A DNA stretch of 40,032 nucleotides from Erysipelotrichales bacterium. GTDB lineage: Bacteria > Bacillota_I > Bacilli_A > RF39 > UBA660. The stretch lies in the NCBI GenBank assembly GCA_022508565.1, contig JAFLUY010000011.1:1-40032 (forward strand), written 5' to 3'. How positions within the stretch are numbered: the first letter of the stretch is position 1; each line of letters starts with the position of its first letter. Position numbers and translations under genes: made by a program. Below, piece by piece: positions 5,064 to 39,589 of the stretch. A model generated the notes under the pieces. That model ran no database searches, was not told the origin of the DNA, and saw only the letters and a list, made by a program, of their open reading frames with translations.

Positions 5064-7172
5064 ATGATTCTAATAATTGCCGAAAAACCATCTTTAGCTC
5101 GAAACATCGTAAGTGCAATTGGAAACATGAAAAGAAACGATGGATATTATTCTAATGATTCCTACTACGTTTCTTGGGCCTTCGGTCATCTTTTTACTTT
5201 AGCTGATATTGAAGATTATGAAGAAAATGTAACAGATTATAAATGGAAAATGGATAACTTACCATGTTTTCCTAAAAAATTTAAATTTAATTTAAAAAAA
5301 GATGCCAAAAAAGAAGCTGATGCTGGTGTTTTAAAGCAATTTAATATTATTTCAAATCTAGCAAATCAAGAAAATGTGACCGAGATTGTTAATGCAGGAG
5401 ATGCTGATCGTGAGGGAGAGGTTATAGTTCGCCTTGTTATTGAAAATGCTTTAAAAACAGAAAAAAAGTTAACACGACTTTGGCTTCCGGATCAAACACC
5501 AGAAACAATTAATGAAGGTTTAAAAGATTTAAAATTAGAAAATGAGTATGATAATTTAGCTAATGAAGGTTTTGCAAGAACCTATATAGATTGGCTATAT
5601 GGTGTTAACTTAACTCGTTATGCAACTTTAAAAACAGGTACATTACTTCGAGTAGGAAGAGTAATTATCCCGATTGTTAAAGCAATATATGATCGTGATA
5701 TGGCAATACGTAATTTTACTCCAGAAATATACTATGGAATATTTAGTAATGAAGAAACTAATGGAGAAAAGATTGAATTAAATAGTAAAGAGAAATTTTC
5801 TAAAAATGAAAAAAATAAGGCTATTGAAATGTGTCAAAAATATAATGTTGAAAAAGCTATAGTTTTTGACAAAAAAGTAAAAAACGATATTCTAAATCCG
5901 CCAAAATTATATTCGTTATCTAAATTACAAAACTATTTAGGTAAAAAGTATAAAATGTCAATGGATAAATCATTAGATATTGTTCAAAAATTATATGAAA
6001 GTGGTTATTTAACTTATCCACGTACTAATTCAGAATATTTAGCAGTAGCTGAAAAAGACAAGATAAAAACAATTTTAAATAATATAAAAAAAATAGGTTA
6101 TCCGGTTAAGTTTAAAGATAAAAAGACGATATTCGATGATTCAAAAATTGAGTCTCATTCAGCATTAACTCCAACCTATAAAATTCCCGAAAAAGATAAA
6201 TTATCTGAAGAAGAATATTTGGTTTACCAAACTGTCTTCAAAAGATTTGTTGCAGTATTTTGTGAAACAGATTGTGAAATTGAAAAAACAGAAATTAAAA
6301 TTAAAGTTGGTGAATTAGAAGAATTTAATCTAAAGGGAACAATCATTAAAACTCCTGGTTGGACAAGATTCGATGAGCCAAGTACGAAAGATAAAATATT
6401 ACCAAACGTTAATATAGGTGATGAAATAAATATTAATTTTGAGCCAAAAGAAAAAGAAACTACACCACCTAAACATTACACAATTGAGACACTAAATAAT
6501 TATTTAAAAAATCCTTTTAAGGAAGATAAAAAAGAGTTAGAAGAAAAAGAAAACTTAAATGAAGAAGATGATTCAGAAGATTATAAAGCAATCTTTGAGG
6601 GATTAGAATTAGGTACAGAAGCAACACGTACTGGTATAATTGATAATGCAAGAAAATCAGAATATATTTCTTTAAAAAAAGATGTATATACTATTTTGCC
6701 TGGCGGGGAATTCCTAATTGAATCATTACTTCAAATGAATATTTCTATGGATAAATATAAAACTAGTGAAATGGGTAAAGCATTAAAAAAGGTTTATCGT
6801 AATGAAATAACTGTTGATGATTCGGTCAAGCTTGCTTGTGATGAAATAGCTGATGTTTTTAACAAAAAAGAAGTTAATATAGAAAAAGATACAGATATTG
6901 GATTCTATGGAGATATTGTAGGTAAGTGCCCACTATGTGGAAATGACGTTATGAAAAATAGATATGCTTATGGTTGTAAAAACTATAAAGAATGTAATTT
7001 TAAAATAAGTACGACTATTTGTGGTAGAACTATCTCAAAAAGTAATGCAGAATTATTACTTAAAGATGGTGCGTCTTCTAAAATAGAAGGATTTATTTCT
7101 AAAAATGGTAAAAACTTTGATGGTCGTTTAAAATTGGATAATGGAAAAGTTGTTTTTGATTTTAATGAATAA
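5064..7172 (+). CDS. topB: DNA topoisomerase III (type IA)
   Basis: This enzyme cuts and rejoins one DNA strand to remove negative supercoils and separate linked molecules. The Toprim domain starts at residue 1 (IIAEKPSLAR) and has its metal-binding motif DADREGE at 113-119. The catalytic tyrosine is Y318 in TYPRTNS. A C-terminal Cys4 zinc ribbon begins near residue 622 (CPLCG) and continues with two more Cys. Its 702 aa and N-terminus fit the TopB group found in Bacillota. An acidic, Glu-rich insert lies around residues 490-510. Start supported by GGAGGT 9 nt upstream. Confidence 0.95.
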   Translation: MILIIAEKPSLARNIVSAIGNMKRNDGYYSNDSYYVSWAFGHLFTLADIEDYEENVTDYKWKMDNLPCFPKKFKFNLKKDAKKEADAGVLKQFNIISNLANQENVTEIVNAGDADREGEVIVRLVIENALKTEKKLTRLWLPDQTPETINEGLKDLKLENEYDNLANEGFARTYIDWLYGVNLTRYATLKTGTLLRVGRVIIPIVKAIYDRDMAIRNFTPEIYYGIFSNEETNGEKIELNSKEKFSKNEKNKAIEMCQKYNVEKAIVFDKKVKNDILNPPKLYSLSKLQNYLGKKYKMSMDKSLDIVQKLYESGYLTYPRTNSEYLAVAEKDKIKTILNNIKKIGYPVKFKDKKTIFDDSKIESHSALTPTYKIPEKDKLSEEEYLVYQTVFKRFVAVFCETDCEIEKTEIKIKVGELEEFNLKGTIIKTPGWTRFDEPSTKDKILPNVNIGDEININFEPKEKETTPPKHYTIETLNNYLKNPFKEDKKELEEKENLNEEDDSEDYKAIFEGLELGTEATRTGIIDNARKSEYISLKKDVYTILPGGEFLIESLLQMNISMDKYKTSEMGKALKKVYRNEITVDDSVKLACDEIADVFNKKEVNIEKDTDIGFYGDIVGKCPLCGNDVMKNRYAYGCKNYKECNFKISTTICGRTISKSNAELLLKDGASSKIEGFISKNGKNFDGRLKLDNGKVVFDFNE

Positions 7173-7188
7173 AAAATAATATCATTTA

Positions 7189-7217
7189 TTGACAAATTGC
7201 GAGTATGATTATATAAT
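7189..7217 (+). promoter_or_regulatory. Perfect consensus promoter of the structured RNA
   Basis: TTGACA (7189-7194) and TATAAT (7212-7217) are exactly 17 nt apart. This is one of the two perfect sigma-A promoters I found here, and it points into a region with no credible gene. Confidence 0.85.
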
Positions 7218-7223
7218 GTAATT

Positions 7224-7597
7224 ACTTAGTATAGCATATTGTAGTTAATGATTATTTTAATATGATTAGTATACTTTTAATTTTAAAACTATACGAAAAA
7301 TCATATTCATTCCTATAAGGAATTTTATTAAGTATCATTTTAGATACTTACAATTAACTACTAAGATGTTTATTAATAATAAGTTTTCGATTCGTGGTTA
7401 TTATTATCTCGATAGATTACCAAATTATGATAAATTATCTTTCGCGAATGTCCATTAGGATTAGAACTGCGACTAAGTGTACACGTGTATTGGAGAGAGA
7501 AACTCCAAATAGTTCTAGAACTATAATTCTACTGATAATAGTTTATAGTTTATTCAAAAAACTTGGAAAGTGTTGGGTTATCAGACCAATGCTTTTT
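7224..7597 (+). ncRNA. Candidate structured non-coding RNA, about 375 nt, family unknown
   Basis: The stretch is bounded by a perfect promoter and a terminator, and has many compatible helices. CTTAG/CTAAG (7225-7229, 7361-7365) plus TAGTTAAT/ATTAACTA (7242-7249, 7353-7360) close a domain. That domain holds AATATGATT/AATCATATT (7259-7267, 7299-7307), ATTCCT/AGGAAT (7309-7314, 7318-7323) and TAAGTATC/GATACTTA (7329-7336, 7343-7350). The 3' half has AATAATAA/TTATTATT (7375-7382, 7398-7405), TAGAACT/AGTTCTA (7462-7468, 7511-7517) around TTGGAG/CTCCAA (7490-7495, 7503-7508), and AACTATAA/TTATAGTT (7519-7526, 7543-7550). A loop-loop contact ATTCG/CGAAT (7390-7394, 7445-7449) is possible. It lacks T-box, tmRNA, RNase P and SRP hallmarks. 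Because argS has its own promoter after the terminator, a free RNA is more likely than an argS leader, but attenuation of argS cannot be excluded. Confidence 0.7.
7567..7597 (+). terminator. Terminator of the structured RNA
   Basis: AAAGTGTTGG (7567-7576) pairs with CCAATGCTTT (7586-7595), with two G:T pairs, a 9-nt loop and a T run. Confidence 0.8.
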
Positions 7598-7629
7598 TAA
7601 TTGTTTATCTTTATAATAGGTTAAAACTT

Positions 7630-7638
7630 TGCTATAAT
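7630..7638 (+). promoter_or_regulatory. Extended -10 promoter of argS
   Basis: TGCTATAAT lies after the RNA terminator and 28 nt before the argS start, so argS can be transcribed independently of the upstream RNA. Confidence 0.6.
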
Positions 7639-7666: not shown

Positions 7667-9400
7667 GTGAGCTTAATTAAAGAAACTGAAAATTACTTAA
7701 CAAAAGTTATCAATTCTTTAGGTTATCAAGTTGATAGTGTTAAATTAGAAAAATCTAAAATGCCTGAATATGGCCAATATCAAATAAATGTTGCTATGCA
7801 ATTTGCAAAGAGATATGGCAAAAATCCCAGAGATATTGCAGAAGATATAGTTGCATCTTTTGATTCACGTTTTATAAATGTGAATATTCAAGGACCAGGA
7901 TTTATAAATGTAACTTTTGATAATGAAGTATTAACTAATTATTTAAATAAATGTATTGACGATTTTTCTAACTTCGTTGATAAAAGTGAAAATAAAAGAA
8001 AAATTGTTTTAGATTATGGTGGAGCTAATATTGCTAAAGAATTGCATGTTGGTCATTTAAGATGTAATATTGGTGAAGCAATACGTAGACTTATTAAAGT
8101 TTTTGGTGATGAATCAATTGGTGATGTTCACTGGGGAGACTGGGGAACACCTATTGGTCTAGTAATTCGTGAAATTCAAGAATTATACCCTGACCTACCT
8201 TATTTTGATGAGTCTTACACTGGTGAATATCCAAGTGTATCTCCAGTTACTAACGATGATTTAGGAGTTATTTATCCAAGGGCTAGTCTAAGAAAAAAAG
8301 AAGACGAAAAATATGCAGAAGAAGCAAGAGAAATGACTTTAAAATTTCAAAAAGGTGTTCCTGGTATAAGAGCTTTATGGCAACATATTGTTAATGTTAG
8401 CAAAACGGATTGTCAAGCCGTATATGATTATTTAAATTGTCACTTTGATTATTCCTATGGAGAAAGTGATGCGGACCCATTTTCAAAACCAGTAATTGAT
8501 TTCCTAAACAAACAAGGGGCTACTGAGATGAGTAATGGAATATTAATCATGCATGTAGCAAATGAAGATGATAAAAAAGAAATGCCTCCATTACTACTTA
8601 AGAAAAGTGATGGTGCCGTGCTTTATGATACAACTGATTTAGCAACAATTATGCAAAGAATGCAAGATTTTACTCCAGATGCTATTTGGTATTTTGCAGA
8701 TGAAAGACAAAGCCTTCACTTTGAACAAATCTTCCGTGGGTCTTATAAATCAGGGCTAGTACCTGAAACAGTTGAATTAAAATTCAATGGCTTTGGAACT
8801 ATTAATGGACCAGATGGAAAACCATTTAAAACTCGTGATGGTGGAGTAATGAGCTTAAAAGGGTTAATTAAACTTGTTTATGACAAGATTGAGCCAAAGA
8901 TTAAAGAAGATATAACGGGTGAAGAAAGAGCAGTAATTGCTAATAAATTAACAGTAGCAACATTAAAATATGCTGATCTTTTGCCAAGCAGAAAGACTGA
9001 TTATATATTTGATATCGATAAATTTACATCGTTTGAAGGTAAAACTGGAATATATGCTGTTTATACTGCAACACGTATGAAGTCTTTATTAAATAAAGTT
9101 GGAAGTAATAATGTTTCAATCAAAAGTGTACCTAATCAAGATGTCTTAGATATTTTAGTAAAACTAACTGAATTAACTAAAGTATTAAATGCATCCTACA
9201 GTGAAGTATCAACATCATACATTTGTGAATTTATCTATGAATTATGTAGTTTATATAATAAATTCTATGCAAATAACAATATTGCAAATGAAGAAAATGC
9301 GGACACAAAGGAAACATTTATTGCTGTTACTAAATTAGCTTATAATACATTATCTAATTTACTTGATATATTAGGTATTGAGATTGTTGATAAAATGTAA
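7667..9400 (+). CDS. argS: Arginyl-tRNA synthetase
   Basis: This class I synthetase charges tRNA-Arg. The HIGH motif appears as HVGH (residues 127-130) in the typical context KELHVGHLRCN. The KMSKS site is degenerate (KTRDGGVMSL), as is usual for ArgRS. An N-terminal Add-1 domain (residues 1-100) and a C-terminal helical DALR domain (from about 455) flank the catalytic core. The 577 aa are normal. The start is GTG, with AGGAAGTG 6 nt upstream. The long intergenic region before it holds a candidate non-coding RNA. Confidence 0.95.
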   Translation: MSLIKETENYLTKVINSLGYQVDSVKLEKSKMPEYGQYQINVAMQFAKRYGKNPRDIAEDIVASFDSRFINVNIQGPGFINVTFDNEVLTNYLNKCIDDFSNFVDKSENKRKIVLDYGGANIAKELHVGHLRCNIGEAIRRLIKVFGDESIGDVHWGDWGTPIGLVIREIQELYPDLPYFDESYTGEYPSVSPVTNDDLGVIYPRASLRKKEDEKYAEEAREMTLKFQKGVPGIRALWQHIVNVSKTDCQAVYDYLNCHFDYSYGESDADPFSKPVIDFLNKQGATEMSNGILIMHVANEDDKKEMPPLLLKKSDGAVLYDTTDLATIMQRMQDFTPDAIWYFADERQSLHFEQIFRGSYKSGLVPETVELKFNGFGTINGPDGKPFKTRDGGVMSLKGLIKLVYDKIEPKIKEDITGEERAVIANKLTVATLKYADLLPSRKTDYIFDIDKFTSFEGKTGIYAVYTATRMKSLLNKVGSNNVSIKSVPNQDVLDILVKLTELTKVLNASYSEVSTSYICEFIYELCSLYNKFYANNNIANEENADTKETFIAVTKLAYNTLSNLLDILGIEIVDKM

Positions 9401-31272: not shown

Positions 31273-31333
31273 TAATTAAGAATAGGGAAGGATAAAAAAG
31301 GGGAATTCCGTAAAAAGTAGGGAGAAGTTGTCT

Positions 31334-34300
31334 ATGAAGGTAATACCAGATATAAGAAAAGAGAAATTAGAAGACGCACAAGAGATTTTAAAAAACGAAG
31401 GAATAAAATATAAGGAAGATGAAGAAAAAGAATTCAGCCTAAAAGTAAGACGAGGAAGAGTAATAAGAACCGAGCCTGAAATAGGAGAAAAAGTAAAGAA
31501 AAATGAAGAGGTAACGATATTCGTATCAAGATTATGGTTGTTACCTATTTTCTTCATACTATTAATTGGTATTCTTTTAATGTTTGTAGGTCTTGGAGTC
31601 TCTAGTATATATACAAGTAATAAACCAGTAATAGCAAGAAAAGGAAAAAACTGGGTAAAAGAAGATATAGTGTATGTCACAAAAGATGTAGATATAGATA
31701 GACTAAATGTATATGAATACTGCCTAAGTACAAAGAAAAGTACAAGAAAATGTGTTTGGAAAGAAACAAAGACAAAAAACATGGTAGTATCAGAAACAGG
31801 AGTATACTATGTAACATTTAGAGGAGTATATAAAGACGGAAGTAAAAGTGCAAAGTCCAATACAGTAACAGTATTTGTAGATAATGATGCACCAGTAGTA
31901 AAAAGAATAGATTCAGAAGAGAAAGCAACATCTCTACATTTTGTAGTGTCAGCAAGTGATAAAGGATCAGGAATAAATAAATATTATTATAAAACTAAAG
32001 ATGGAGAATGGAAAGAAGTAGGAAAAGACTTTACTATTAAAGGATTAGACCCAGATACTGAGTATGATATAACTGTAAGAGTAGAAGACAAAGCAGGAAA
32101 TATCTATGAAGTAGAATTTAAATCAAAAACTTTAAAACCAGAAGAAGATCCAGATTATAATAATAATTCAAACAATAATGGAAACAATTCGAATAATAAC
32201 TCAAATAATGGAGACAATAATTCAAATAACAATGGTAATAATGGTGTAGATAATAACAACGGAAATAACGGCAATAACAACAACGGAGATAATTCAAACA
32301 ATAATAACAATAACAACAACAATAATAATGAAAATAATAACCAAGGTGGAGAAAACGAGAGTAATAATAATCAACCAGGATCAGGAAACCAAGGTGGAAA
32401 CGGCGAAGATAACTCAGGAAATAATCAAGGAGGAAACACATCTACTACAACTACTACGACTAGTAAAACTACGACTAGTACAACAAAAAACGCAAACTCA
32501 ACAACAAGCTCGACTACTGTACGTACAACAAGTAGTACAAGTACAACATCAAAGACAACATCAACTACTTCTAGTACTACAGTAAAAACAACAAGTAGCA
32601 CAACTACTAAAACTACTAGTTCAACAACAAGTAGTACAACAAAAACAACAAGTTCAACAACAAGCTCAACAACTAGTAGTACAACAAGTAGTACAAGTAC
32701 AACTACAGAATCTGAAGATAAAGATCCAGAGCCAGAACTAGAAATACCAACAATAGATTTAGAAGATTTACCTTCTATGTTTGAGTATGGAAGTGATTAT
32801 AAACTACCAAGTCATTATACATTTGGACCAAGTGGTGGAGAAGTTTATTGTGCAATCGATTATGATTGGTCAGTAAACTACACAACAACATCTGAATTGC
32901 CTGTTGGAGAATATACAGTAACATGTAAGGCAGTAAGTGCAGTTGGACCAGTAGCTACAACAGAAAAGCAAATAAGAGTAACAGTACCAGATGGAGAAAA
33001 TGAAGAATGGGATGGATGGATAAGATTAAATCTATATTATCCAGCAGGCTCAACAAATAGGCAATGGAGAATAGGTAGAGTTGATGAGATCCGTGACGGA
33101 GAAGAAGATACAGGATGGAAAGATTATACAGGACCAATCTTAGTTCGAATCAGTGATGTTTCTAATATTTATACAAGATATGAATTAAATGGAGAAGAAT
33201 ACGTAGATTCATTAGATGGAAGTCTTGTAGTAGATATTGAACCAGAGAAATTTGTAGCATCTGAAGGAGAAACAATAAAAGTAAATATATACTATACACT
33301 AGATGCAAAAACAAGAGAGTATCGTATTAACGGTGGAGAATGGCAAGAATATACAGGCGAATTCTATGTTGTAGGAAATACATTAATAGAAGCAAGAACA
33401 ACAAGAGATGAAGATGTATACGATTCAGAGGGAAATTATATATTAACAAGAACTATAAGTGCAAATGATCAAGCATATATCTCACAAAAAGAAGAAGTAT
33501 ATGATTTTGGAACTGTAGAGATAAGTATAATACCAGATGAAACACGTCTAAGAGGAAATGCGAAAACTACAGTAAATATTTATTACGCAGAAGATGCCGA
33601 AGAAAAATATTATAAAATTGACAATGGGGCATGGAAAGAATACGCTGGACCATTCACAGTAGGAAAAAATACTACAATCTATGCTAAAGCAGCAGCAACA
33701 AGAACAATCACTTTAGAAAATGGAATAGAAAAAATTGGAAAAGCAGAAGGAAAAACACAAAGAACAGTTGGAGAAATTAAGAATACAACTGGTGATGAAG
33801 ATGAAGAAGAGACAAGATATACAGTTGATGTATATGGAAGAACGCCAATAGATAATACTGAGACATCACAAACATATGTAAGTGTAGAACGTGGTATAGT
33901 TAGCCTAGAATATAGCATAAATGGTGGAGAATGGATATTAACTGATATAAAAAGATCAGGAAACCATGAATTAATAGAAGTAGCAGAAAATACATTAGTA
34001 ACAGTAAAAGCAACTTATAAAGATGAAAATAATTCATACTACAATGCTTATGATAGCTTATATGTATCAGAGAATAAAAACTCATTAAGAGTTAATATTT
34101 CAACATCAAAGAAAGAACTGGGCTCAAAAGATACTGCAAATATAAGAATAAGTACAAACTATCCAGCAGAAACTTTAGAGTATAGAGTTAATGGTGGAGA
34201 ATGGCAAAAATACGAAGGAGTATTTAAAGTAACAAAGAATACATTAATTGAAGCAAGAGCAACAAAGACAAATACAGATGGAACAACTCAAGAAACATTT

Positions 34301-37300
34301 GCAAGTTTATATATAGATAATATAGATTTAGAAATAGTAATAAATTCAAATGTAGATAGAGTTGTAAAGGGAAGAAAAGCAACAATAACATTAAACACAA
34401 ACTTCAGTAGTGCAAAAATGTATTACAGTTTAGATAATGAAAACTATGAAACATATACTGGAGCCTTCGAAGTTGAAGGTGGTTCAACTGTTTATGCGTA
34501 TGCAGAATCAGAAAATACAGATGGAACAAAAGAATATGCATATGATACAAAAACAATTGGAATAGTAGAAGTACAAGATAAGTTAGCTGGACCAGTGATT
34601 ACACAAAATCCAACAAACTTAACTGAAGTAACTTATGTAACAGTTACTCCACAACAAGAAGCATCAGCAGTTTACTATAGTATCAATGGAAGTAAATATC
34701 AAACATATGAAGGACCTATAGAAATAACAACGAACTCTGTAGTAAGTGCATATTACATAAGAAAAAGTGATGGAAAACAATCACAAACATCTTACTATCA
34801 AGTACAAAATATAAAAGTACCAAATAAACCATATGTAAGAATAGATGCAGAACCAAATAGATTCTTAAGTGAAATAGTGCCAATGGTTAAAGTAACAATT
34901 AGTGGAAGTGACTATGATAGATTAGAATATTCATTTGATAATATTGTATATACACCATACACTGAACCATTAATAATTACACAAAGTCAAACTGTATATG
35001 CAAAAGGAACAAATTCAGTTGGAGAAACAATAGAAAAATTAACAGTTACAACAGCAACTGCACCAACACCAGTTGAAAAACTTGATGTTAAAATTACTGC
35101 AACACCAGCAGAAGAAGATGTTAAAGACATAATAGATAAAGTAGAAGTAAGTATTTATTATGATGAAAAATCAACATCAAGATATTATCAAATAGGAAAT
35201 GGAGCATTACAAGAATATACAGAGCCATTTGAACTTACTGAAAATAAAACAATAAAAGCATATGCTATTAGTGAAAATGGACAAGGAACTGATGAATTAC
35301 AAGTTAATTATTTAACAACAGGAATAGCAAATCCAGTAATTAAAGTTAGTCCAAAAGAACCAGCATCATATGTAAGGGTAGAAATAGATTATGCACCTAC
35401 AGCAAGTGTAAAAAAATATAAACTTAATAATGGTGAATGGTTAGATTATAATGGACCATTTGATGTAATAATAAATGATACATTAATAACAGCATATAAT
35501 GAAGATATTCTAGGACATCATGAAGAAAGTACATATTTAGTAGAAAATATCATACCATATGAAGATTTAACTATACTAGATGATGGAATGTACTATTTAA
35601 TTACTCTAAATTATCCACCAACTTCAAAAGCTGAAGATAGAGAATATAAATGGAAGAAAAATGGAGTATGGAAAAAATATGACGAACATGGGTTTATATT
35701 AATAAAACCAGAATATGCTGATTTAGTAACTGAAGATGGAGTAAAAATAACAATAAATGGTAAAGAAGTAACATTAAAAGACCATTATTATATACTAGAT
35801 GTACCATTAAGTGAATTAGCAGAAAATATCTTCATGAGATGGGATTTAACACCGCCAAGTACACCAACATTCATAGTAAGTAAAACTACATGGGCACAAA
35901 AAGTAACAGTAGGTATTAACTATGATAAAACTAGTACTAAAAAACTATATAAATTAGTTTATGAAGATGAAACAGAAACAGAATGGTTAGAATATACAAA
36001 ACCAATAGAAATAGATAAAAACAATGTTACTATACTTGCTAAATCGCAAAATGAATTAGATATATGGAGTAATATTGGATCTAAGCAAATAACTAATATT
36101 GATTTAGATAAACCAGTTATAGAAGAAGTAGTGGCAACAAAAACTGGATCAAGTGGATTTACAGTAAAAGTAACTGCATCAGATGAAACAAGTAATATAG
36201 ACACTTACCATTATTCAATCGATGGCAAGACATTTACTTCAAGTAAAAATAATGAATATTCATTTACTGGATTAAAACCAAATAAAAAATATAATGTATT
36301 TATTCAAGTAAAAGATGAAGCAGAAAATGTGTCTGAAATTTATAAAATGGAAGTATCAACAGCAAGTGTCGGAGAAATAACATTTGCACTTAATACAGCC
36401 AACTGGGCAGTCTCTAAAAAGTTAACTATAAACTACCCAAAAGATGAATATGAAGGATTCAAATATAAATGCAGTGTTAATTTAGGTGAGACTTGGTTTG
36501 ATTATGAAAAAGAGTTAGATATAACAGAACTAGATACAAATGTTATAGCTATAGTAGAAGATATAGATGGAGAAGTTTTATCATCAGCAAGCTTTACAGT
36601 ACATAAAATTGATCCAACAGAACCAACAATAAGCCTAGATGGATTACCAGAACAAGTATCAAGTGATAAGGAATATAATTTGCCAACAAGTTATACTGAT
36701 GGTCCAAGTGGATCCAGCATAGAATGTACAATGCCTGGATATGATGAAAATTATAAAAATTCAAATGAATTACCTTTAGGTAAAAATACATTAACATGTA
36801 CAATTACAACAGGAGCAGGATTAACTGCAAGTACAGAAAAAGAAGTAGAAGTAATAGCAGCAACAATTAAGGGTGATAGCATAATTGACATCTTAAATAA
36901 CAAAGATGACTTTAAAAATGGTTACTATTACTTTGAAATTAATAATACAGAAGAAATCTACTCAGTGCACATGTATGTATTAGATGGTGATCAAATTATA
37001 GATAAAAATACTCAATATGGTAGCTTTAGCGATGTAGGATCTGCAAGCAGAGATGCCCAAAACATGGTAATTGTAAAAGTAAATGGAAATTACACAGTAG
37101 AAGAGGGAGTAACGGTAGGTCCAATCTATAATAACTATGGAGGACCAAAAGGGTTCATGTTATACGTAACAGGAAAGTTAACAAATAATGGAACAATAGA
37201 TAATTCTCACGGAGCAAAAGCAGTTGGTCAAAATGTATACTTATGGAAAAACGCGAACCCAGAGGATGATCAAGAAGAATATGAATATGTACCAAAAGCA

Positions 37301-39589
37301 GGAGCAACCGGAGGCACAAGGCCAGGAAGTTATTCTGCTGGAAACACAGGCGGAACAGGAACAGGACGCCAAACTGGCGGTGGAGGATCTGGCGCCAAAG
37401 GAAACACCGGAGGAACGGCAGGTCTTGGAGGAACAGGAACAAGCTATTCTGGCGGGCCAGGTGGAGGCGGTGTCTCTGTTGGTACAGGAGGTACACAAAC
37501 TTCAGGTGGCGGAGGAGCCAATGGAGGAGCCGGAGGAAACGCTGCGACAGGAAGTTCCGGTGGAGGAGCCGGAAATCCAGGTGGAACGGGAACTGCAAGT
37601 GGCGGTGCTGGAACAGGCGGTCTTCTAATTATATATGCGAATGAATATGAAAATAAAGGAACAATTAGTGCAAACGGAACATCTGGAGGAAATGCTGCAA
37701 CAGGAGGAGGCTCATCTGGTGGAGGCTCAATCAATATATTTGCAAACAATAATACAGTAACGGCTCAAGAACATGCCACAGTAGCAACAGCAACTAGATA
37801 TAGTAATATCCTTGGAAAAAATTCTCAAACTGGAGGTACTGCAGCAGGAACAACAACTAAAGGTGGAGCAGGTGGAGCCGGAACAATTAACATAGGAGAA
37901 ATCCGAAATGGAACTTACTATGATTTAAAGAAAGTAATAGATCAAGATAGAGAAAAATACAAAGAATCAGTTTCAATAAAAGGAGAAAGTATAATAGATA
38001 TTCTGAATAAGAATAATTTAAAAGAAGGATATTATTACTTTAAAGTTATAGATGAGGAAAATGATATAGATGAAACTTATCCAGTACATTTAATTGTTGA
38101 AGAAGGAAATCAAACAATAACAGAATCCACAACATATGGAAGTTTAAGTGATGTAGCAACTTCAAGTGATTATGCCCAAAACATGGTAATTGTAAAAGTA
38201 AATGGAAATTACACAGTAGAAGAGGGAGTAACGGTAGGTCCAATCTATAATAACTATGGAGGACCAAAAGGGTTCATGTTATACGTAACAGGAAAGTTAA
38301 CAAATAATGGAACAATAGATAATTCTCACGGAGCAAAAGCAGTTGGTCAAAATGTATACTTATGGAAAAACGCGAACCCAGAGGATGATCAAGAAGAATA
38401 TGAATATGTACCGGCCAAAGGCGGAGCTGGAGGAGCAGCAGCGGGAACAAATAGCGCAGGTATAGCGGGAACAGCAGGAACAGCAGGAACACGTCAAACT
38501 GGAGGTGGAGGCTCTGGTGGGGCACATGGCTATGGACCAAGCGGAGCAGGAACGGCAGGAACGTCATATTCAGGAGGAACCGGAGGCGGTGGAAATCAAG
38601 GCGGTGCAAACGGAATCGCTAATGGAGGATCCGGTGGAAAAGGCTCTACTGGTGGAGGAGCTGGAAATCCAGGAGGCGCAGCCGGCACTAGCTATTCAGG
38701 CAACACAGCAGGCGGAAATGGAACAGGTGGTCTTCTAATTATTTATGCAAATGAATATGATAATACTAACGGAAAAATAACAGCAAATGGAAAATCTGGA
38801 GGAACTTCAAGTGCTGGAGGCGGAGGCTCATCAGGCGGAGGCAGCATTAATGTATTCTACACCAATGTGATAAGTAAAGGAGTAACATCCAATGTAACTG
38901 CTAACGGTGGAGCAGCAGTAGGTTCATCAAAAAAAGGTGGAACCGGAGGAAAAGGTACAATAACATATACCCAAATAAATCTAACTTCAACTCCAACAGT
39001 TTCAAATAAAGCACCACAAGCCGTAATAAAACTTCCAAATCCAAAAATTAACATTTCAACAACTGACTTATCTAAAGAAAAAACTATAGCAATTGAATAT
39101 CCTACTGGATATACAAATGAATATAGTTTAGATTTAGGAGAAACATGGAATACATATTCAGAAGAAATAACTATTGATAAACCAACAACAGTAATTGCAA
39201 GAACAATCAATCATGATGGAGAAGTTGTATCATCATCAAGTATGACTATTACAAAGATAGGTGATACAACACCATCTACTACTCTTGATTTAGAAGATGA
39301 ATATGTTGAAGGTACAGATGTTAATATACTAAGTGAAGATATAACTGAATGTCATATTGGTGATACAACTATCACAAATATAAGTGAAATTCCAGTTGGA
39401 ACTCATGAAATAGTATGTACATTAACTAATGAAGAAGAAAATGTTTCAACAGTTTCTAAAAATGTTATAATAAAAGAGAAAGCTGTAGATGCTTCAGAAA
39501 CAACAGAAACTATTGCAACTGAAGAAACAGTTGAGATAGAAAACCAAGAACAAGAAAATATAACTTCGGAGGTAGAAGAAAATGAATAA
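31334..39589 (+). CDS. Giant multidomain surface protein, 2751 aa
   Basis: Domains in order: a PASTA domain (1-65, VIPDI...GEKVKKNEEVTIFVS); one membrane segment (about 67-92); an Ig-like and an FN3-like domain (95-270); an Asn-rich linker (273-368); a Ser/Thr-rich linker (369-460); an HYR-like domain (465-555); about 12 repeats of the type YxINGGEWxxYxGPF...TLIxAxA, resembling chitobiase C-terminal/Fn3_assoc units (to about 1590); a second FN3, one more repeat and a second HYR (1595-1840); two Gly-rich modules (about 1845-2200 and 2215-2555); and a last repeat plus HYR domain. No LPxTG or C-terminal anchor. Positive residues before the membrane segment put the PASTA domain in the cytosol and the rest outside. 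It looks like an adhesin or a matrix protein; function inferred. The ATG at 31334 follows GGGAGAAG; a TTG at 31328 is too close to that site. It overlaps the next gene by 8 nt. Confidence 0.85.
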   Translation: MKVIPDIRKEKLEDAQEILKNEGIKYKEDEEKEFSLKVRRGRVIRTEPEIGEKVKKNEEVTIFVSRLWLLPIFFILLIGILLMFVGLGVSSIYTSNKPVIARKGKNWVKEDIVYVTKDVDIDRLNVYEYCLSTKKSTRKCVWKETKTKNMVVSETGVYYVTFRGVYKDGSKSAKSNTVTVFVDNDAPVVKRIDSEEKATSLHFVVSASDKGSGINKYYYKTKDGEWKEVGKDFTIKGLDPDTEYDITVRVEDKAGNIYEVEFKSKTLKPEEDPDYNNNSNNNGNNSNNNSNNGDNNSNNNGNNGVDNNNGNNGNNNNGDNSNNNNNNNNNNNENNNQGGENESNNNQPGSGNQGGNGEDNSGNNQGGNTSTTTTTTSKTTTSTTKNANSTTSSTTVRTTSSTSTTSKTTSTTSSTTVKTTSSTTTKTTSSTTSSTTKTTSSTTSSTTSSTTSSTSTTTESEDKDPEPELEIPTIDLEDLPSMFEYGSDYKLPSHYTFGPSGGEVYCAIDYDWSVNYTTTSELPVGEYTVTCKAVSAVGPVATTEKQIRVTVPDGENEEWDGWIRLNLYYPAGSTNRQWRIGRVDEIRDGEEDTGWKDYTGPILVRISDVSNIYTRYELNGEEYVDSLDGSLVVDIEPEKFVASEGETIKVNIYYTLDAKTREYRINGGEWQEYTGEFYVVGNTLIEARTTRDEDVYDSEGNYILTRTISANDQAYISQKEEVYDFGTVEISIIPDETRLRGNAKTTVNIYYAEDAEEKYYKIDNGAWKEYAGPFTVGKNTTIYAKAAATRTITLENGIEKIGKAEGKTQRTVGEIKNTTGDEDEEETRYTVDVYGRTPIDNTETSQTYVSVERGIVSLEYSINGGEWILTDIKRSGNHELIEVAENTLVTVKATYKDENNSYYNAYDSLYVSENKNSLRVNISTSKKELGSKDTANIRISTNYPAETLEYRVNGGEWQKYEGVFKVTKNTLIEARATKTNTDGTTQETFASLYIDNIDLEIVINSNVDRVVKGRKATITLNTNFSSAKMYYSLDNENYETYTGAFEVEGGSTVYAYAESENTDGTKEYAYDTKTIGIVEVQDKLAGPVITQNPTNLTEVTYVTVTPQQEASAVYYSINGSKYQTYEGPIEITTNSVVSAYYIRKSDGKQSQTSYYQVQNIKVPNKPYVRIDAEPNRFLSEIVPMVKVTISGSDYDRLEYSFDNIVYTPYTEPLIITQSQTVYAKGTNSVGETIEKLTVTTATAPTPVEKLDVKITATPAEEDVKDIIDKVEVSIYYDEKSTSRYYQIGNGALQEYTEPFELTENKTIKAYAISENGQGTDELQVNYLTTGIANPVIKVSPKEPASYVRVEIDYAPTASVKKYKLNNGEWLDYNGPFDVIINDTLITAYNEDILGHHEESTYLVENIIPYEDLTILDDGMYYLITLNYPPTSKAEDREYKWKKNGVWKKYDEHGFILIKPEYADLVTEDGVKITINGKEVTLKDHYYILDVPLSELAENIFMRWDLTPPSTPTFIVSKTTWAQKVTVGINYDKTSTKKLYKLVYEDETETEWLEYTKPIEIDKNNVTILAKSQNELDIWSNIGSKQITNIDLDKPVIEEVVATKTGSSGFTVKVTASDETSNIDTYHYSIDGKTFTSSKNNEYSFTGLKPNKKYNVFIQVKDEAENVSEIYKMEVSTASVGEITFALNTANWAVSKKLTINYPKDEYEGFKYKCSVNLGETWFDYEKELDITELDTNVIAIVEDIDGEVLSSASFTVHKIDPTEPTISLDGLPEQVSSDKEYNLPTSYTDGPSGSSIECTMPGYDENYKNSNELPLGKNTLTCTITTGAGLTASTEKEVEVIAATIKGDSIIDILNNKDDFKNGYYYFEINNTEEIYSVHMYVLDGDQIIDKNTQYGSFSDVGSASRDAQNMVIVKVNGNYTVEEGVTVGPIYNNYGGPKGFMLYVTGKLTNNGTIDNSHGAKAVGQNVYLWKNANPEDDQEEYEYVPKAGATGGTRPGSYSAGNTGGTGTGRQTGGGGSGAKGNTGGTAGLGGTGTSYSGGPGGGGVSVGTGGTQTSGGGGANGGAGGNAATGSSGGGAGNPGGTGTASGGAGTGGLLIIYANEYENKGTISANGTSGGNAATGGGSSGGGSINIFANNNTVTAQEHATVATATRYSNILGKNSQTGGTAAGTTTKGGAGGAGTINIGEIRNGTYYDLKKVIDQDREKYKESVSIKGESIIDILNKNNLKEGYYYFKVIDEENDIDETYPVHLIVEEGNQTITESTTYGSLSDVATSSDYAQNMVIVKVNGNYTVEEGVTVGPIYNNYGGPKGFMLYVTGKLTNNGTIDNSHGAKAVGQNVYLWKNANPEDDQEEYEYVPAKGGAGGAAAGTNSAGIAGTAGTAGTRQTGGGGSGGAHGYGPSGAGTAGTSYSGGTGGGGNQGGANGIANGGSGGKGSTGGGAGNPGGAAGTSYSGNTAGGNGTGGLLIIYANEYDNTNGKITANGKSGGTSSAGGGGSSGGGSINVFYTNVISKGVTSNVTANGGAAVGSSKKGGTGGKGTITYTQINLTSTPTVSNKAPQAVIKLPNPKINISTTDLSKEKTIAIEYPTGYTNEYSLDLGETWNTYSEEITIDKPTTVIARTINHDGEVVSSSSMTITKIGDTTPSTTLDLEDEYVEGTDVNILSEDITECHIGDTTITNISEIPVGTHEIVCTLTNEEENVSTVSKNVIIKEKAVDASETTETIATEETVEIENQEQENITSEVEENE
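32155..32440 (+). repeat. Asn-rich low-complexity repeat in the giant gene
   Basis: Runs of AAT/AAC codons broken by GGA and GAT encode an Asn-rich, Gly-containing linker. Codon-sized slippage here would change linker length without shifting the frame. Confidence 0.85.
32437..32706 (+). repeat. Ser/Thr-rich repeat in the giant gene
   Basis: Repeated ACA/ACT/AGT/AGC codons encode TSSTTS-type units, including several near-identical AGTAGTACAACA segments. It is likely a stretched stalk or a glycosylated segment. Confidence 0.85.
37053..37293 (+). repeat. Copy 1 of a 241-bp direct repeat
   Basis: It encodes the shared 80-residue start of the first Gly-rich module (AQNMVIVKVNG to EEYEYVP). It is identical to 38172-38412 by reading. 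The sequences just outside differ clearly. Confidence 0.9.
38172..38412 (+). repeat. Copy 2 of a 241-bp direct repeat
   Basis: This is the second copy, 1119 bp downstream and in the same frame. The Gly-rich regions that follow the copies (37294-37740 and 38413-38850) are related but not identical. Confidence 0.9.

Follow-up and report, generated by a model that had tools for sequence, protein, structure and literature searches.

What does the 494-base gap between topB (5064-7172) and argS encode? The gap lies in the window analysed here, 40,032 bases that make up one complete contig (C3); the draft genome to which it belongs measures 1.69 Mb and has relatives among Bacilli MAGs. A sequence-only reading of the window had proposed that the gap holds a strongly promoted, highly structured noncoding RNA of about 375 nt and of unknown family. 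Comparison with relatives indicates that the gap very probably carries a standalone structured noncoding RNA characterized by a pseudoknot (P1), helix A and a kissing pair of loops (Table 1). With appreciably less assurance, the same RNA is also likely to form homodimers where it carries a palindrome. Elsewhere in the window, positions 31328-39589 hold a single ORF of 2753 aa, which is very large for so small a genome as this.

Table 1. Features of the topB-argS gap and its surroundings (positions in the 40,032-base window).
Feature	Position	Strand	Remarks
Promoter TTGACA-N17-TATAAT	7189-7217	+	12/12 matches, sigma-70; matching upstream site in relatives
Noncoding RNA, about 375 nt	7223-7598	+	Predicted from promoter, terminator, fold and alignment with relatives
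P1 pseudoknot, 5' strand UACUUAGU	7223-7230	+	At the very start of the transcript
5'-domain hairpin GUAUA-C-UUUUA ... UAAAA-C-UAUAC	7269-7294	+	Double changes in 4/10 pairs
Part matched by Rfam PGK RNA (RF03040)	7456-7545	+	37.6 bits (cut-off 50.8 bits)
Helix A, 5' strand UAGAACU	7462-7468	+	
P1 pseudoknot, 3' strand ACUAAGUG	7472-7479	+	Inside helix A
Palindrome UACACGUGUA	7480-7489	+	Proposed symmetric dimer contact
Conserved purine-loop hairpin UUGGAG-AGAGAAA-CUCCAA	7490-7508	+	Family consensus GAG-AAAGAAAA-CUC
Helix A, 3' strand AGUUCUA	7511-7517	+	
Hairpin	7518-7551	+	Stalk 7518-7520/7549-7551; upper stem 7526-7531/7539-7543
Hairpin loop CUGAUAA	7532-7538	+	Complementary to terminator loop UUAUCAG 7578-7584
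Intrinsic terminator	7565-7598	+	Stem 7565-7597, 9-nt loop, T tail; loop 7578-7584 UUAUCAG pairs with 7532-7538
Separate promoter-like site for argS	7610-7638	+	TTTATA-N17-TATAAT, 10/12, extended TG before -10
argS	7667-9400	+	Downstream neighbour, outside the RNA

Signals and limits of the RNA gene

The signals proposed by the sequence-only reading were recovered. The upstream promoter matches the consensus at every scored position, and a promoter-like site occurs at the equivalent position in 82 of 83 non-redundant relatives (10 to 12 of 12 matches in 75 of them), so the site in the window is not a chance match. The terminator stem with its T tail covaries among nine orthologues; a simple terminator scanner, which is restricted to loops of 3-8 nt, reported none at 7565-7597. 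The promoter-like site ahead of argS agrees with the suggestion that this gene is transcribed separately. Both ends of the transcript are deduced from the positions of promoter and terminator, and we infer that the RNA is transcribed from a start at about 7223-7225.

The region between these signals was said to be highly structured and to hold no credible gene, and both statements were borne out. A scan of the promoter-to-argS interval found no ORF longer than 68 aa, and the frames are broken by indels in the alignment of relatives. A coding reading of 7366-7458 was rejected on account of 1-nt indels that relatives carry within the aligned region. The predicted RNA fold of 7224-7600 has a free energy of -81.9 kcal/mol, compared with a mean of -63.2 (sd 5.1; z -3.7) for shuffled sequences, and none of 100 shuffles was as stable. 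Folding this one sequence alone does not recover P1, the pseudoknot that forms the chief helix of the architecture.

Known families, relatives and neighbouring genes

Is the RNA a member of a family already described? At gathering thresholds, a cmscan of the whole window returned tRNAs only. The models of RNase P, tmRNA and 6S RNA gave no match at the argS locus in scans of the window and of the interval, and all three RNAs lie elsewhere in the genome above their cut-offs (C35:7251-7585, C23:82176-82533 and C1:227037-227206, respectively). T-box and SRP models gave no match in the interval even at E 10. A diverged housekeeping RNA or an argS T-box might be suggested by the size of the RNA and its position before an aminoacyl-tRNA synthetase gene, but these searches and the unrelated genes adjoining its relatives refute that idea and leave it practically no probability. 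The sequence-only reading had likewise set aside T-box, tmRNA, RNase P and SRP.

The best match of the interval in an open-threshold cmscan was the PGK RNA (RF03040), which scored 37.6 bits against a gathering cut-off of 50.8 and thus falls short of membership by score. PGK RNA reportedly goes back to Weinberg et al. 2017, and our literature search found no paper discussing RF03040. The match is full length (model positions 1-92 of 92). When aligned with true PGK loci, the window copy shows the GAG-purine loop-CUC hairpin followed by the UACUGAUAAUA hairpin, and the two are enclosed and joined in the way that the model prescribes. The 92-nt model thus spans helix A, the conserved GAGAAAGAAAACUC hairpin and the UACUGAUAAUA hairpin of the window RNA, but it lacks the P1 5' strand, the 5' domain and the terminator contact. 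It is also filed as Cis-reg, with a placement upstream of pgk, whereas the window copy lies between topB and argS and the family occupies diverse contexts. The RF03040 cut-off is exceeded in 10 of 98 genomes of the host's GTDB family, and at the inspected loci the same arrangement of promoter, P1 and terminator generally surrounds the match. Judged by these alignments, RF03040 is only the 3' domain, or 3' quarter, of a larger RNA to which the true PGK matches also belong. Since the loci above the cut-off generally show the same larger standalone gene, the Cis-reg label is probably wrong, or at least incomplete. The claim of an unknown family needs amending for the 3' quarter, which RF03040 matches below its cut-off.

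Other likenesses are slighter. The GibS sRNA (RF04182) matches 7446-7601 at 25.7 bits, far under its cut-off of 115, and mostly through the terminator and A+T composition. The raiA motif RNA is, like the window RNA, a standalone structured RNA of Bacillota, but it gave no match in the interval and is a known monomer (PMC12286853). A possible likeness to the Mycoplasma MCS4 RNA was dropped when a literature search gave no usable paper.

Relatives of the RNA, nearly all from MAGs, were collected in several ways. By nucleotide search, four genomes of the same genus proved to have clear homologues, and weak BLAST matches in other genera (L006-L013) were taken as chance matches of A+T-rich sequence. 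A covariance model built on the 3' domain (R1), which has few base pairs and whose prevalence figures are lower bounds, detected the RNA in 8 or more of the 9 genomes of the genus, with two copies in five of them, in 70 of 290 genomes of the order, and in 17 of 394 genomes of the class, all within the same GTDB family. In the order, therefore, either the RNA is patchy or the model lacks sensitivity. When 84,980 species genomes were scanned for the pattern, 112 stretches came up, nearly all from gut MAGs of Bacilli or Tenericutes, and the scan of viral contigs found no carrier. Homologues occur in more than 100 other Bacilli MAGs, beside unrelated genes. Three loci of the pattern search (L046, L098 and L117) were left out for want of the architecture, and 83 members were left after redundancy removal. 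As far as searched, the family is confined to one GTDB family of gut Bacilli, by the evidence of these scans. The genome analysed here has a paralogous copy at C12:59203-59304 (L168:604-705) with its own promoter, P1 and terminator. In a Tenericutes MAG, two copies of the argS-locus RNA share an 8-kb stretch with a true OLE RNA (L075:7447-7927; 221.6 bits).

Following the Rfam filing, one might take the RNA to act in cis, as a leader or attenuator that regulates the gene after it, with the terminator kissing contact as its expression platform. Some members do precede a codirectional pgk (L092, L103, L105 and L134), the topB-locus copy of the same genus in L005 precedes pflB, the terminator takes part in the kissing contact, and 86 of 100 downstream genes are codirectional. 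The neighbourhoods speak against it. Family loci adjoin efp, rplL, ftsW-murG, lepA, pgk, gap, topB-pflB, topB-argS, htrA, a lipid kinase gene and others, and the neighbouring proteins fall into 43 clusters downstream and 49 upstream. The remaining 14 of 100 downstream genes are convergent, among them htrA in L085 and L132 and the lipid kinase gene in L060, and codirectional genes are nearly as frequent on the upstream side (76 of 94). Within the host genus, two genomes differ in the gene that follows the same RNA (argS or pflB), and argS has its own promoter-like site. Cis-regulation is accordingly an improbable explanation. A discrete noncoding RNA, as opposed to an argS leader, is what the sequence-only reading had proposed, and the unrelated neighbours across the family, together with the RNA's own promoter and terminator, uphold it. 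In comparative terms, the borders of the gene and its independence from neighbouring genes are established.

P1, helix A and the kissing contact

The 3' strand of P1 lies within helix A, so its pairing with the start of the transcript makes a pseudoknot. Among 61 members, the P1 strands score 9.14 with their own partners, compared with 6.50 (sd 0.18) when re-paired between members, and none of 2000 re-pairings reaches the observed value (kinship ignored). These members have 52 different P1 helix sequences. At least six P1 pairs can form in 76 of 82 non-redundant members, where six of the first seven pair positions show every one of the four Watson-Crick types. Changes on both sides were found in 26 disjoint nearest-relative pairs, several of the more distant ones on doubtful helices; an example is TTACTTAG/CTAAGTAA against TTGTCTAG/CTAGACAA. 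Such nearest-relative counts are only a partial answer to the effect of kinship in the permutation tests. Because MAFFT misaligns helix A, RNAalifold did not return it from the first broad alignment, and it was therefore tested separately. It scores 6.98 against 6.36 (sd 0.18), above all shuffles (kinship ignored).

The test of covariation in homologues proposed with the sequence-only reading revealed covarying helices both in the wider family and among close relatives. In nine orthologues, a structure of 56 pairs has 96.1% of its cells paired, a share that drops to 37-46% if each partner is shifted by 1-3 columns; double changes occur at 24 of the 56 pairs. P1 and the kissing pair hardly vary among these nine, and their support thus comes from the wider family and from paralogues.

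The sequence-only reading had also raised a possible loop-loop contact. This can now be placed between the loop of the 7518-7551 hairpin and the terminator loop, and it re-pairs in paralogues. Across the 112 members, TTATCAG is found within 240 nt downstream in 72, in 66 of them as the terminator loop, whereas permutations of its letters (n=200) gave a mean of 1.6 and a maximum of 8 (kinship ignored). Both sides are changed in paralogues, to CTGACA/TGTCAG in eight non-redundant members and to CTGACAA/TTGTCAG in one. The C12 paralogue of the same genome carries the CUGACA/UGUCAG form, and further genomes of the genus likewise have the two types (CTGATAA/TTATCAG and CTGACA/TGTCAG) alongside each other. 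The comparison shows the CUGAUAA/UUAUCAG pair to be a real contact in the comparative sense.

The purine loop AAAGAAAA is nearly invariant across the family and may well be a functional surface. In most members a conserved AAACUCG or AAACUAGG precedes the terminator (AAACUUGG in the 7490-7564 region of the window). Since the purine hairpin itself contains the AAACUC that this element repeats, the GAG of the hairpin could pair with either copy.

How might these parts work together? The RNA is most likely standalone and trans-acting, and its transcript would begin with one strand of P1. That strand is predicted to fold back some 240 nt onto the loop inside the 3' domain, giving a pseudoknotted core around the conserved purine-loop hairpin, and the 3' end would be locked by the kissing of the hairpin loop with the terminator loop. 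Comparative evidence shows P1 and helix A to be parts of this architecture, which as a whole is firmly supported at the level of sequence.

A palindrome and possible self-assembly

Directly after the 3' strand of P1, the window RNA carries the palindrome UACACGUGUA. Perfect palindromes of at least 8 nt (8 to 14 nt) occur within 22 nt before the purine hairpin in 43 of 83 members, compared with about 8 in shuffles (kinship ignored). Twelve different central tetramers were found, all self-complementary: AATT, ACGT, TATA, TGCA, GATC, ATAT, CTAG, GCGC, GTAC, CATG, AGCT and TCGA. In six disjoint nearest-relative pairs the palindrome has switched with its symmetry retained. Taken across the family, these patterns show selection for palindromy.

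Similar switching has been described in large bacterial RNAs. In OLE, the palindromes of L9.3 change from GGCC to GAUC or AGCU, and in GOLLD, L21a changes from GC to CG; such changes were read as a sign that loops kiss symmetrically between the molecules of these homo-oligomers (PMC12286853). OLE, ROOL and GOLLD share with the window RNA that they are noncoding RNAs with kissing loops (PMC12286853), and the OLE and GOLLD feature of a palindrome covarying at adjacent nucleotides is found in the argS-locus family with 12 centres. The argS-locus RNA differs in that it is smaller (about 200-450 nt), forms an oligomer only by prediction, and has no match to the OLE, ROOL or GOLLD models in the window or the interval.

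Could the palindrome serve a single molecule instead? The same standalone RNA might be a monomer, either a base-pairing sRNA or a scaffold for RNA and protein, with the palindrome forming a short hairpin, a transient contact or something similar. The raiA motif provides a precedent for a large monomeric RNA (PMC12286853), members without the palindrome retain the purine hairpin, P1 and the CTGATAA hairpin, and the near-invariant purine loop could bind a protein or a U-rich target. A hairpin accounts for the outer pairs of the palindrome but not for compensation between neighbouring bases at its centre, since such neighbours cannot pair within the same strand, nor does it sit easily with 12 different centres. 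The monomer is therefore the unlikelier of the two accounts, and the palindrome likely pairs between molecules. We favour homodimerisation as the likely role of the palindrome in the palindromic type. The core of this branch would present its palindrome to the same element of a second molecule, its most likely partner, and the working form would for that reason probably be a homodimer or a larger homo-oligomer.

Dimerisation would not be universal. The palindrome and the kissing contact occur together in 34 members, are both absent from 31, and occur singly in 17; the family is thus split into two types, an association that may stem from shared ancestry. Type II, about half of the family, has neither the palindrome nor the terminator kissing pair, and for this reason dimerisation cannot extend to all members. 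Type II RNAs, with a conserved UGUAAY and a non-complementary terminator loop, often stand directly after rplL (L038, L043, L061, L113 and similar loci), and an L10 leader lies upstream at three such loci among those scanned. Some 180-320 nt downstream of type II copies, weak second matches with the hairpin loop AAGGAAAA (L073:3354-3451, L096:277-361 and L172:706-803) are possibly a degenerate repeat or an extra type II domain.

Copies that reside in one genome mostly differ in their palindrome, and random members usually differ too. Tandem or neighbouring copies were seen at L171:244-1046, L022 and L118; those of L171 have different palindromes (ATAACTAGTTAT and TAATCGATTA), and those of L022 nearly identical ones. 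In the genome analysed here, the window copy has UACACGUGUA and CUGAUAA/UUAUCAG, and the C12 paralogue has UGUGAUCACA and CUGACA/UGUCAG. A tentative proposal, and one that goes beyond dimerisation itself, is that the family represents a new self-assembling class: compact pseudoknotted RNAs that would dimerise with their own kind, by RNA alone, through a palindrome that evolves fast, while differences in palindrome and terminator kissing pair would prevent paralogues in one genome from mixing.

To conclude, a 92-nt Rfam entry filed as a regulator of pgk appears to cover just the 3' domain of an RNA gene that is widespread and standalone. The family is large and barely described, and the databases hold only a fragment of it; P1, the kissing contact and the palindrome are three elements absent from the RF03040 model. 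All three are open to direct tests by compensatory mutation. With this family, the RNAs that likely self-assemble would come to include one much smaller than GOLLD or ROOL; the family also offers a natural series of self-pairing loops for studying the specificity of RNA dimers.
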